DNA from: Prochlorococcus sp. AG-363-K07
GTDB lineage: Bacteria > Cyanobacteriota > Cyanobacteriia > PCC-6307 > Cyanobiaceae
Assembly (NCBI GenBank): GCA_003280225.1
Contig: QCFO01000007.1
Coordinates: 1 to 64,000 of the forward strand
Direction: 5' to 3'
Length of the DNA: 64,000 nucleotides
Shown piece after piece: positions 38,804 to 43,736 of this stretch. How positions within the stretch are numbered: the stretch's first letter is position 1; every line of letters starts with the position of its first letter. Under the pieces are notes generated by a model. It searched no databases, was not told the DNA's origin, and saw only the letters and a list, made by a program, of their open reading frames with translations. The position numbers and the translations under genes are program-made.

Positions 38804-39646
38804 TTGCAAAAATGGCGAAAGTCAATTAAAAATTTAGGCCGAAAATCACCCTACTTTGAGCTTTTACCATCTAGAAAGGAGCTTATTCTGATTAATTCAA
38901 CTTGGTTCCGAGATCTTGCTGGAGCATTGATCTTCTACACAGTTCTTCCAGGCTTTCCCTTTATTAAACCTAGGTTTGAACGCATTGCACGTTTTGCGCC
39001 GTTAATCGGGATAGTAATAGGATTCATCCAAGGTTCTATTTGGCTAATACTGTCAGATTTAGATTGGCCAAAAGAATCTATAGCTCTTTTTGTTGTCGCT
39101 TCTGGCATTGTTCTAACAGGAGGTCTTCATTTAGATGGACTCATGGATACTTCTGACGGGCTATCTGCTGGCAAAATTAGATGCTTAGAAGCGATGAAAG
39201 ATAGCAGAGTTGGGTCTATAGGAGTTCAATCCTTAATTATCATCCTACTCATACAAATCAGCGCTTTAATCAAACTAGAAAAATATGCTCCCACTGCCAT
39301 TATCATGGCTAATTTCTGGGGGAGATGTGCACCTCTCTTAGCAATTAACCAATTCAAATATCTTCACCAAGGAAGGTACTCCGACTTGCACAGAGCTCAC
39401 TGGAAAGGCTGGCATGAGTTAAAGCCAGCCTTTTTAACTATTATCGCAATAATAGCAATCTTCTCTTTCATTAAAACAAGTCTGATTAGCCCTTGGAAAC
39501 TAATATTGATAGGTATATTCCCGACAATTATCATTCCCAAAAAACTAGGGAAATGGTTAGGTGGACATAGTGGTGACTCATATGGTGCTTCAATTGTTTT
39601 AGTAGAAACTATTACTCTGATTTTACTGGCCCTATTTTGGAATTAA
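38804..39646 (+). CDS. cobS: Adenosylcobinamide-GDP ribazoletransferase (cobalamin synthase)
   Basis: [40 protein letters not shown]; multiple TM helices. Confidence 0.92.
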
Positions 39647-40748
39647 GACTTAAAAAGAATGCATTACCAGTCTCTGGAAGATGAGAACTAACAAGGGAAG
39701 GTGGAATTATTAAACCAAGGTCTCCTCCTAACTGCTCTGCCAATTCACGACCAACTGCAAGGCCAAGGCCTGAACCAGAGCTTTTCAAAACTTTTTTTCC
39801 ACGAATACCTTTTTCGAAAATTCTTTCTCTTTCATCTAAAGCAATTTGAGGTCCTGAATCCCAAACACAAATACCTTTTTCACACAAATAAATTCCCAAA
39901 GAACTTGTAGATTCACTGTATCGGAAAGCATTTTCAAGCAAATTAGCCACCACCTCTGCAATTACCCCATCCCGAGCTGGCCTCATCTCTGATGTCCAGG
40001 CTGGCCATTGAGAAGGAGGAATCCATTCTCTGCCTTGCAAACGAGCTGTCGCGGAAGCTCTTTCAATCAAAGGTTTTAAAAGATCCTTGATATTTAAGGA
40101 GCTTTCCTTTGAAACAAGAGGAGGGAGCAAAAGTCCAGAGGAAGATATTTTTGCTGAAGGCAATTTGTTCTGACTTAACTCATCCAAAGCAGATATATAA
40201 CGATGCAATTGATCTTGCTCACTTAGCAAACCTTCCACCAAAGTGCGATAGTTACTCTCTGGACCAAGTTTTCTCAATAAAAGCTGAGCATAAGTTCGCA
40301 AAGCTGCTAATGGATTTCTCAACTGATGAACCATCAAACCAATTTGCTCTCGTTGTTGATTTAATTCATCTAAAAGTCTTCTTCTATCAAGCTCTAATCC
40401 CAAGCATTGAGCAAGGGCATTTGCCGTTAACTGAAGGCGTTGATCAAGCAATTCAGACCAAGGGTCATCTGAACAAAATCGTTCGACCCTAAGCACCCCT
40501 AAAAGGATTGACCCTTCCTGAAGGGGATACCAGCGTCTATCTAGGGAGGGATCTCTCAATTCTGGGTCAGCTTCAACTGGGGGCAAAGCCTTTTCGAGAG
40601 ATGGCCATTGCCCAATAGGCTCCAAACTTGGAGCCTTCCCTTCCTTGGACTGAGCGACATAAACAACCAATTGCTCAACCTCAGACTCATGCTGAAAACT
40701 TTCCAACTGCTGTTGAACAAGATTCAAAAACCTTTGCGATAACTGCAT
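39612..40748 (-). CDS. Sensor histidine kinase (GAF-like N-terminus)
   Basis: H box MVHQLRNPLAALRTYAQLLL, N box NLLENAFRYSE, G boxes VWDSGPQI and GSGLGLAVGRELAEQLGG. Confidence 0.9.
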   Translation of the reverse strand: MQLSQRFLNLVQQQLESFQHESEVEQLVVYVAQSKEGKAPSLEPIGQWPSLEKALPPVEADPELRDPSLDRRWYPLQEGSILLGVLRVERFCSDDPWSELLDQRLQLTANALAQCLGLELDRRRLLDELNQQREQIGLMVHQLRNPLAALRTYAQLLLRKLGPESNYRTLVEGLLSEQDQLHRYISALDELSQNKLPSAKISSSGLLLPPLVSKESSLNIKDLLKPLIERASATARLQGREWIPPSQWPAWTSEMRPARDGVIAEVVANLLENAFRYSESTSSLGIYLCEKGICVWDSGPQIALDERERIFEKGIRGKKVLKSSGSGLGLAVGRELAEQLGGDLGLIIPPSLVSSHLPETGNAFFLSLNSKIGPVKSE

Positions 40749-40797
40749 AGCTATTTATCTCCAAGTGATCGGGAGGTTTCCAAAAAGAGGGAATTTG

Positions 40798-40825
40798 TTG
40801 AAAATTCAAAAAAAAGTATTAAGAT
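40798..40825 (+). promoter_or_regulatory. Sigma70-like promoter for the DUF3155 leader transcript
   Basis: TTGAAA (40798-40803), 16-bp spacer, TAAGAT (40820-40825). Confidence 0.55.
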
Positions 40826-40831
40826 AGTGGT

Positions 40832-41103
40832 ATCGGCCGTCACAACGCTTATCCGTTTTTACTCAAAGGTCTACTCCGGTGTGTTGCACAACGGGTGCTT
40901 CCAAAGCTACAGCAGAGGTAGATGGGTTTCCTCTATTAAGCAACCGAGTTGACCATTTAGTTTGAGAATTTGTTGTCTGCATTAATGCAACAATCCAAGC
41001 TGGGTGCTATCGGATGATTGTGGATCAAAACCTCGTGAAAAGCACGAGATCTCAAAGCTCCGGATTGAAGCCGATTCTTTTCTGTCCCTATCTCACTCAC
41101 TAA
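40832..41103 (+). other. Structured, putatively transcribed leader/ncRNA with small upstream ORFs
   Basis: Hairpins TTGT(C)TGCAT-TA-ATGCAACAA and CTCGTG-AAAAG-CACGAG enclosed by ATCGG...CCGAT; uORFs 40881-40952 (GTG), 40985-41017 and 41014-41103. Confidence 0.45.
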
Positions 41104-41116
41104 AGAGTTGCCTCAA

Positions 41117-41485
41117 ATGTCTAAAAAGCGCAAGCGTATCAGTCGTAGAAGGTTAGCTGGTCAGAGAGTTTTAGCCCACGTTTCAACGCACCATTTAGAA
41201 ACTGGGGAACATAAGCCCGTCACCGCTGCCAGGCGTTACATTGCAGAAGCAGGACTATTTGCTCCAGCACTTTTAAATGTTCGACGAAACGAGCACACAA
41301 CCGATCGTTTCTTTTGGGGAGAAAAAGGATTATTTAGCGCTCAATATGCTGAGGAAAACCATTTTCTTTTTCCTTCACTGAGATCAATAGTTGATGGAAT
41401 TGGGGAATCCATTATCTTTGAAGGTCTAGAGCTGACTGCAGACGACTGGGAAGAAATTGAAGAGTATGAATATGCTTTTGTATAA
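41117..41485 (+). CDS. DUF3155 domain-containing cyanobacterial protein
   Basis: MSKKRKRISRRRLAGQRVLAHV...KPVTAARRYIAEAGL...VRRNEHTTDRFFWGEKGLFSAQYAEENHFLFPSLRS. Confidence 0.88.
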   Translation: MSKKRKRISRRRLAGQRVLAHVSTHHLETGEHKPVTAARRYIAEAGLFAPALLNVRRNEHTTDRFFWGEKGLFSAQYAEENHFLFPSLRSIVDGIGESIIFEGLELTADDWEEIEEYEYAFV

Positions 41486-41502
41486 GCCTTACGAAACTAT
41501 TT

Positions 41503-42117
41503 TCAAATAATCCATTCTTTAATTGCATCTCTAATTCTCAGTATCATATCCTGTGGAATTTCATGTCCTCCCTCAAATAAAACCAATTCTAAATACCTAT
41601 CTTCATAATTTCTTTTTAAAGAGTCAAATAACTCCTTAGAAGCCAGTAGAGGTACGATTTCATCCTTAGTCCCGTGAATCAGGAGGACGGGAGGACCTTT
41701 GAAAGAGTAGGAGCTACCTAGATGGGGATAGCCACTACAACCAATAATGCCCCCCAACGGCAAATCTAGACCAGTAGCTAAAGCCATTGCAGCCCCTTGA
41801 GAAAAACCCAAGAGGATCGTTTTTTCAAGACTTATTGAGCTCTGTTTAAAAACTTCTATTCGAGAACGAAGGTTTGCTATCGCAACAGGTACAGAGTCCC
41901 AGTCTGGTGGAAATAATCTATACCACTGTCTCCCAAGACCATCGGGATGCTCTTCAGGCGCACGGAGTGCCACTATCTCAAAAAGGTCGTCACCCAAACC
42001 CTTTACTAGCTCCTTACCAAGAGGCAATAAATCATCTGCATCTGCCCCCCAACCATGAAGTAATACCAATCTCCACAAAGCCCCAGAAGGTTTGATGGAT
42101 ATAAAGTCCCTTTTCAT
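41503..42117 (-). CDS. Alpha/beta hydrolase (phospholipase/carboxylesterase-like)
   Basis: RLVLLHGWGADADDLLPLGKEL...ILLGFSQGAAMALATGLDLP...PVLLIHGTKDEIVP...EGGHEIP. Confidence 0.88.
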   Translation of the reverse strand: MKRDFISIKPSGALWRLVLLHGWGADADDLLPLGKELVKGLGDDLFEIVALRAPEEHPDGLGRQWYRLFPPDWDSVPVAIANLRSRIEVFKQSSISLEKTILLGFSQGAAMALATGLDLPLGGIIGCSGYPHLGSSYSFKGPPVLLIHGTKDEIVPLLASKELFDSLKRNYEDRYLELVLFEGGHEIPQDMILRIRDAIKEWII

Positions 42118-42179
42118 TGCAGCAATTTTGATCTCGATTGCGTAAGTTGGCGCATGGAATGCCTCACCTATCATCTGCC

Positions 42180-43736
42180 ATGGCACCAATCGCCCTGCTA
42201 AGTGTTTCAAATAAAAAGGATTTACTCCCTTTTGCCAAAGCCCTAGTTGATCTACATAATTTCCAACTTATTTCCAGTGGTGGTACTGCTAAGACACTTG
42301 AAAACGAAGGTCTAGCTGTAACACGAGTGGCTGATTACACTGGAGCTCCTGAAATCCTCAATGGAAGAGTCAAGACCCTTCACCCAAAAGTACATGGTGG
42401 CATTCTTGCAAAAAGAGATAAACCTAATCATTTAAGCGATCTAAAACAACAAAACATTTGCCAAATAGACCTAGTGGTAGTCAATCTCTACCCATTTCAA
42501 GAAACTATCGCAGACCCAAATGTTAGTTGGGAACATGCTATTGAAAATATTGATATTGGTGGTCCTGCGATGATTCGCGCTGCTGCAAAAAATCATTCTG
42601 ATGTATCAATTCTCACTAGACCTGATCAATATTCAACCTTCCTAGAGGCCTTGAAAAACAAAACCATCACCGACTCATTGCGCAAGCAACTAGCTCTAGA
42701 GGCCTTTGAACATACAGCTTCATATGACATAGCTATTAGTCAATGGCTTTCTAAAAGGGTTAAAGGGGAAAGATCACCATGGCTTGAATCGCTGCCTCTA
42801 CATCAAAATCTTCGCTACGGTGAAAATCCCCATCAATCTGCTGCTTGGTATAGCATTCCATCAAAAGGTTGGGGTGGAGCTAAGCAATTACAAGGCAAAG
42901 AGTTGAGTACAAATAACTTATTAGATCTTGAGGCAGCTTTAACTACAGTCTACGAGTTTGGCTATGGCAACACTGGCAAAACAAGCTTTGAGCATAAGGC
43001 TGCTGTTGTTATAAAGCACACCAACCCTTGTGGAGTAGCAATAGAAACACCTACCAATAGTGCACTAACTAGAGCATTAGAAGCAGATCCTGTTAGCGCA
43101 TTTGGAGGAATTGTGGCTCTGAATCATTCGGTAAATTCTAAGGACGCAAAGTCGCTAACTAGTCTCTTTCTTGAATGTGTAGTAGCACCCTCATTTGAAA
43201 CAGAAGCTTTAGAAATTCTTTCTGTAAAACCAAATCTTCGACTTTTAGAGCTCTCACCAAATGCCTTAGAGAACTTAAGTAATGAACATATTCGCAGTAT
43301 ACTTGGAGGTGTACTAATTCAAGAAAGAGATAACAGCTTCATAGAGATTAAAAACTGGAATGTATCAACTCAACGACCTCCATCAGCACTAGAAAAAAAC
43401 GACCTTCTTTTTGCATGGAAATTAGTTCGTCATGTTAGATCCAATGCAATTGTGGTTGCATTAAATGGACAAAGTCTCGGAATTGGAGCAGGACAAATGA
43501 ACAGAGTTGGCTCCGCTAGGTTAGCTCTAGAGGCGGCTGGCTCAAAAGCCAAAGGAGCTGTATTAGCTAGTGACGGTTTCTTCCCTTTTGATGACACAGT
43601 CAGACTAGCTGCAGAATATGGCATAAAGGCAATAATTCAGCCAGGAGGAAGTATTAGAGACTCAAATTCTATTGATGCATGTAATGAATTGGGTATCACT
43701 ATGATCTCAACTGGAATCAGACACTTTCTACATTAG
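42180..43736 (+). CDS. purH: Bifunctional AICAR formyltransferase/IMP cyclohydrolase
   Basis: [21 protein letters not shown]...[47 protein letters not shown]...[12 protein letters not shown]. Confidence 0.96.

Follow-up and report, generated by a model that had tools for sequence, protein, structure and literature searches.

A conserved, structured mRNA leader upstream of the DUF3155 gene in Prochlorococcus and related Cyanobiaceae

In the streamlined genomes of Prochlorococcus and marine Synechococcus, regulatory proteins are few and 5'UTRs short. A leader of about 285 nt that is kept across the family in front of a single gene would mark a point of tight control. In Prochlorococcus MED4, 5'UTR length has a median of about 29 nt and exceeds 100 nt in only 8.86%, while a scan of these 5'UTRs against Rfam found no element (PMC3898218); given such short leaders, one of 285 nt would be costly there. 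The DNA analysed here, a 64,000-nt stretch of Prochlorococcus sp. AG-363-K07 (the window), raises the question of what such a leader might do upstream of a gene encoding a DUF3155 protein. A preliminary description, made from the sequence of the window alone, had proposed a structured leader with four paired elements and three chained small upstream ORFs, with a role as an attenuator, a riboswitch-like element or an independent non-coding RNA.

The locus and its predicted transcript

The locus comprises the following features.

39612-40748, minus strand: histidine kinase gene (HisKA and HATPase_c by Pfam), divergent from the DUF3155 gene
40798-40825, plus strand: promoter TTGAAA-16-TAAGAT (TTGAAA at 40798-40803, TAAGAT at 40820-40825, spacer of 16 nt)
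40832-41116, plus strand: whole DUF3155 mRNA leader, about 285 nt, its extent predicted from the promoter
41117-41485, plus strand: DUF3155 gene (PF11352, 122 aa, Pfam score of 156 bits)

The promoter lies where the preliminary description had placed it and predicts a transcript start at about 40832. Its spacer and -10 element (AAAAAGTNTTAAGAT) are kept in nearly all family loci in the intergenic alignment, and a search of the same genome at up to two mismatches found the promoter motif at the DUF3155 locus only. We observed that this stretch (40804-40825) is unusually conserved in the family, as though a factor or a special sigma recognized it.

In protein searches, DUF3155 turned up in 140 of 151 family genomes, including all 94 with a completeness of at least 90%, and, in the wider class, in each genome among those listed. 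Its N-terminus is strongly basic (MSKKRKRISRRR). An AlphaFold2 model based on 28 near-identical sequences was poor (pLDDT 58), and a PDB fold search with it returned nothing above noise; a PDB sequence search gave chance matches only, and in the literature searched, DUF3155 was mentioned only in a software paper. For comparison, we assembled about 90 Cyanobiaceae DUF3155 loci with their upstream DNA. The divergent kinase gene precedes DUF3155 in all loci examined, with its start 369 nt upstream of DUF3155 in the window and mostly 310-440 nt from the DUF3155 ATG elsewhere (138-253 nt in a few loci). This constant divergent pairing (39612-42210) hints that kinase and DUF3155 are functionally connected.

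A junction followed by a chain of hairpins

A lack of conservation upstream of DUF3155 in relatives had been named in the preliminary description as grounds for abandoning a structured leader. Instead, both sequence and structure were found to be kept across about 90 relatives' loci, which strongly supports a structured mRNA leader under selection. Its elements in the window are as follows.

40862-40966, plus strand: 5' domain, a three-way junction closed by the long stem P0, delimited by folds, pair counts and a covariance model
40862-40867 with 40961-40966, plus strand: outer pairs of P0, CTCAAA/TTTGAG
40868-40871 with 40951-40954, plus strand: P0 pairs GGTC/GACC
40873-40876 with 40946-40949, plus strand: P0 pairs ACTC/GAGT
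40878-40880 with 40943-40945, plus strand: P0 pairs GGT/ACC
40882-40902, plus strand: hairpin P1 (TGTTGCAC-AACGG-GTGCTTCC; consensus GGTTGCAC..GTGCNACC)
40903-40919, plus strand: most conserved core AAAGCUACAGCAGAGGU, comprising a junction strand and the 5' arm of P2
40914-40934, plus strand: hairpin P2, AGAGG at 40914-40918 with CCTCT at 40930-40934
40971-40992, plus strand: hairpin P3, conserved and covarying
41005-41027, plus strand: hairpin P4, consensus GACG-TTTGGG-CGTC
41032-41048, plus strand: hairpin P5, CTCGTG (41032-41037) and CACGAG (41043-41048) around AAAAG, with 93% of cells paired across 17 relatives
41061-41073, plus strand: hairpin P6, CGG/CCG (consensus CGGC..GCCG), for which relatives have compensatory stems instead
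41076-41094, plus strand: C/U-rich, G-poor tract
41095-41108, plus strand: hairpin P7 in the ribosome-binding region, ACTC(ACTAAA)GAGT

Three of the hairpins proposed in the preliminary description are conserved and covary. They correspond to P3 (TTGTTGTCTGCATTAATGCAACAA at 40970-40993), P5 and P2, the last lying one base off the position first given. To these, the comparison adds P0 and P1 in the 5' half and the C/U tract and P7 in the 3' half. The fourth proposed element, an enclosing pair of ATCGG (41009-41013) with CCGAT (41071-41075), is present in the window, but the pairing is not conserved: depending on the base pair, between 1 and 11 of the 15-17 relatives form it, and one pair occurs in only 1 of 17. 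It was therefore rejected, those bases being taken by the conserved P4 and P6.

The 5' domain carries a conserved block, GGUUGCAC..GUGCNACC-AAAGCUACAGCAGAGGU, which lies about 50 nt after the predicted transcript start and is still recognizable in G+C-rich freshwater relatives with unalignable flanks. Loop lengths within it differ by single bases, so the block is not coding. When diverged relatives were folded singly, the same junction emerged, with a long closing P0, P1, the conserved core and P2. For the core 17-mer, the second-best match in the same genome was AAAGCTACCGCAGAGAT, with two mismatches (G000:C4:90049-90065).

An alignment of 24 sequences built without reference to structure was used for the 5' half. 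Over 30 pairs, 78.6% of cells formed standard pairs, compared with 31-42% when the partners were slid, and changes on both sides occurred at 18 pairs. The RNAalifold consensus energy was -32.8, whereas column shuffles gave -8.2 ± 2.3 (z -10.5, sense strand), and the antisense strand was weaker (z -6.8). The default setting of RNAalifold recovered P0 only, whereas RIBOSUM scoring recovered all three 5' helices. In the 3' half (17 aligned sequences), RNAalifold yielded five hairpins, P3, P4, P5, P6 and P7, with a z of -9.7 on the sense strand against column shuffles; 80.5% of cells were standard compared with 38-45% after sliding, and both-side changes were seen at 19 pairs. Six coding-sequence controls from the same loci gave z values of -0.1 to -2.0. 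A phylogeny-aware test of single pairs, which is underpowered, was significant for 1 of 30 pairs in the 5' half and 0 of 28 in the 3' half, so that the support for the structure rests on whole-helix statistics. What emerges is conserved base pairing ahead of a single gene, in the strand that is transcribed.

This structure extends over the ribosome-binding region, as would be expected of a cis-regulatory leader. A strong stem in the P7 region was found in 45% of 76 loci compared with 10% in dinucleotide shuffles, and its arms differ among relatives (ACTCC..GGAGT, CTCCC..GGGAG, ACCCC..GGGGT and TCCCT..AGGGA). The 3' arm lies mostly at -11 to -16 and is sometimes a poor Shine-Dalgarno sequence (GGGGT, AGGGA). 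In the window itself, P7 has 4 bp only, and the minimum-energy single-sequence fold of the whole leader pairs this region otherwise; conserved folds that exclude each other did not emerge from the comparison. The adjoining C/U tract is a family-wide trait, with C at 0.41, U at 0.31 and G at 0.10 over positions -50 to -17.

Distribution and origin of the leader

A covariance model built on the 5' domain (P0/P1/P2) matched the window at 40860-40966 with 84.8 bits, its sole significant match in that genome, where the next best reached 18.8 bits (E 6.6). It also matched the DUF3155 leader in 60 of 90 loci. In a search of 81 family genomes under strict filters, 41 had a match, always one per genome and always at the DUF3155 leader (41 of 41). 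With such filters, the lack of a match in G+C-rich family genomes does not speak for a loss, and most of these genomes show the core motif. No copies of the 5' domain were found before other genes, either in the genome of the window or in the 81 family genomes, and no cyanophage match was obtained. The Rfam comparison suggested in the preliminary description likewise returned no family: with a cut-off as loose as E<=5, none of the 4227 families of Rfam 15 matched the window region, and at E<=0.1 none matched the leaders upstream of DUF3155 in 20 related loci.

Within the family, the 35-nt unit formed by P1 and the core, AGAGGTTGCACAAAT(T/C)GTGTCACCAAAGC(C/T)ACAGC, is duplicated in tandem in the Prochlorococcus sp. 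MIT 0701 clade, where the two copies stand head-to-tail and are 94% identical (L145:1177-1246; also in loci L022, L028, L037 and L141). This duplication suggests that the unit is a functional module.

Other cyanobacteria have a much shorter predicted DUF3155 leader (about 51-70 nt, and about 91 nt or more in one case). It carries one conserved hairpin, UUUUGUAR..YUACA (z -3.0), directly behind the predicted start of the transcript; the AGGAGG of these DUF3155 genes is open, and their start codon is usually UUG. The UUUUGUAR-loop-YUACA hairpin is common to distant cyanobacteria (loci L092-L121 and L204-L215). In the deepest family genus sampled (L090 and L091), the upstream region is likewise short and lacks the 5' domain. 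Given these short leaders outside the family and in its deepest sampled genus, the long leader is probably an innovation that arose within Cyanobiaceae. The YUACAGC string that both leader types have in common may be a relic of the older cyanobacterial hairpin.

Judged by these sequence comparisons, the DUF3155 leader is an undescribed RNA family among the structured cis-acting mRNA leaders, which are a known kind of element.

Possible functions of the leader

The reading that we favour, with a probability of about 0.7, is that the leader acts as a cis-acting translational control element of the DUF3155 mRNA, specific to Prochlorococcus, Synechococcus and Cyanobium, whatever its effector. P7 would partly occlude the ribosome-binding site, the C/U tract would offer a standby or landing site for the ribosome, and the 5' domain would serve as a recognition platform. 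An effector binding to P1 and the core module could then shift the folding or the access of the ribosome and so set the output of DUF3155. What the leader senses would offer a direct route to the function of DUF3155.

The likeliest effector would be DUF3155 itself, as in ribosomal-protein autoregulation. We favour it over other effectors considering that the element is confined to the DUF3155 gene, that the conservation of the protein is extreme and that its N-terminus is basic; in every genome tested, the element occurred only at the gene of its putative binder, as in autoregulated leaders. This is nonetheless a guess, to which we give somewhat less than even odds, and the RNA binding of DUF3155 is putative. 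Autoregulatory leaders are known from ribosomal-protein mRNAs, for example those of the S15, L1 and S20 types. Like these, the DUF3155 leader is gene-specific, occurs in single copy, ends at the ribosome-binding site and precedes the gene of a small basic protein. Unlike them, it serves a protein that is no known ribosomal protein and whose binding is putative, and no mimicry of rRNA was apparent. A more detailed scenario, in which the leader would be a feedback RNA of a new class, is doubtful: the P1-core module would bind either DUF3155 or a ligand connected with the function of DUF3155, and the Cyanobiaceae leader would have expanded from the older UUUUGUAR..YUACA hairpin with its open Shine-Dalgarno sequence, gaining a switch at the ribosome-binding site and, where the module is duplicated as in the MIT 0701 clade, a further binding module. 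Were this scenario true, it would give a handle on the role of a core cyanobacterial protein.

Control of the leader in trans by a small RNA, RNase E, another RNA-binding protein or temperature, the last through a thermometer or a processing or stability element, is rather unlikely. A single-stranded C/U tract beside a short hairpin at the start codon would suit such control, and the long stable 5' stem could shield the 5' end. RNA thermometers and hairpins that occlude ribosome-binding sites similarly place a short hairpin over this region, as P7 does, but a thermometer needs neither the size of this leader nor a conserved core, whereas the DUF3155 leader adds a conserved upstream junction of 100 nt with a near-invariant core.

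The main rival, a variant of the control leader as regards its effector, is a metabolite or ion riboswitch in which the junction and core would form the aptamer and P7 the expression platform. A junction whose unpaired core is near-invariant and a stem over the ribosome-binding region are consistent with it, as is the tandem core module, a pattern also known from glnA RNAs, which sometimes occur in tandem (PMC2864571). The element nevertheless occurs once per genome and with DUF3155 only (41 of the 41 genomes matched), whereas known riboswitch classes usually govern several different genes, a recurrence that is customary rather than strictly required. DUF3155 also lacks a metabolic annotation, and the leader is without an Rfam match, which leaves a riboswitch unlikely. 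The glnA riboswitch (RF01739) and the Downstream-peptide RNA (RF01704) resemble the DUF3155 leader as cis-acting leaders of cyanobacteria, marine ones included, but they precede several nitrogen genes or small peptides, and the DUF3155 leader matches neither in sequence nor by model.

An independent small RNA transcribed from the DUF3155 promoter and ending before the gene, as the preliminary description had considered, would fit the strong conserved promoter and the compact 5' domain. It is very unlikely, since the covarying structure continues into the ribosome-binding region, up to the hairpin beside the DUF3155 start codon. Experimental evidence may bear on this as well. Axmann et al. (2005) listed in MED4 a cluster 217, flanked on one side by the gene of a two-component sensor histidine kinase and on the other by that of a conserved hypothetical protein; the experiment on this cluster was negative (PMC1242208). 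MED4 has four histidine kinase genes in all (PMC1242208), and cluster 217 is therefore probably the DUF3155 leader locus of this strain. The Yfr1-Yfr7 and later Yfr RNAs of Prochlorococcus were, like the DUF3155 leader, found by comparing intergenic regions in the same organisms, but they are free small RNAs on Northern blots, whereas the DUF3155 leader is joined to the start site of its mRNA.

Attenuation through upstream ORFs, in which the translation of chained small ORFs would control DUF3155 or the folding of the leader, had been raised for three ORFs.

40881-40952, plus strand: first upstream ORF, GTG start, 23 aa, not conserved and probably due to chance
40985-41017, plus strand: second upstream ORF, 10 aa, not conserved and probably due to chance
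41014-41103, plus strand: third upstream ORF, 29 aa, not conserved and probably due to chance

These ORFs exist as described, with an ATGA overlap and a run to 13 nt before the main start. They are not conserved, however: no counterparts at an equal distance from the main start were found in seven relatives, the same genus included, and their start codons are absent at the corresponding alignment positions. They are probably chance ORFs specific to the strain of the window, which, together with the single-base length variation in the conserved block, makes control by their translation hardly credible. An intrinsic-terminator attenuator signature (a G+C stem with a U-run) was not noticed in the leader sequences either.

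Conservation at the level of DNA only, as operators of a bidirectional promoter, or chance folding is most improbable, for although the region lies between divergent genes, its sense fold exceeds the antisense fold and the shuffles, G-U pairs are frequent and the slid controls collapse.

Translational control in cis therefore remains our preferred reading of the leader. As a separate observation downstream of the gene, the small RNA Yfr1 (RF01116) lies shortly after DUF3155 in one of the genomes compared (L115:1947-2016).
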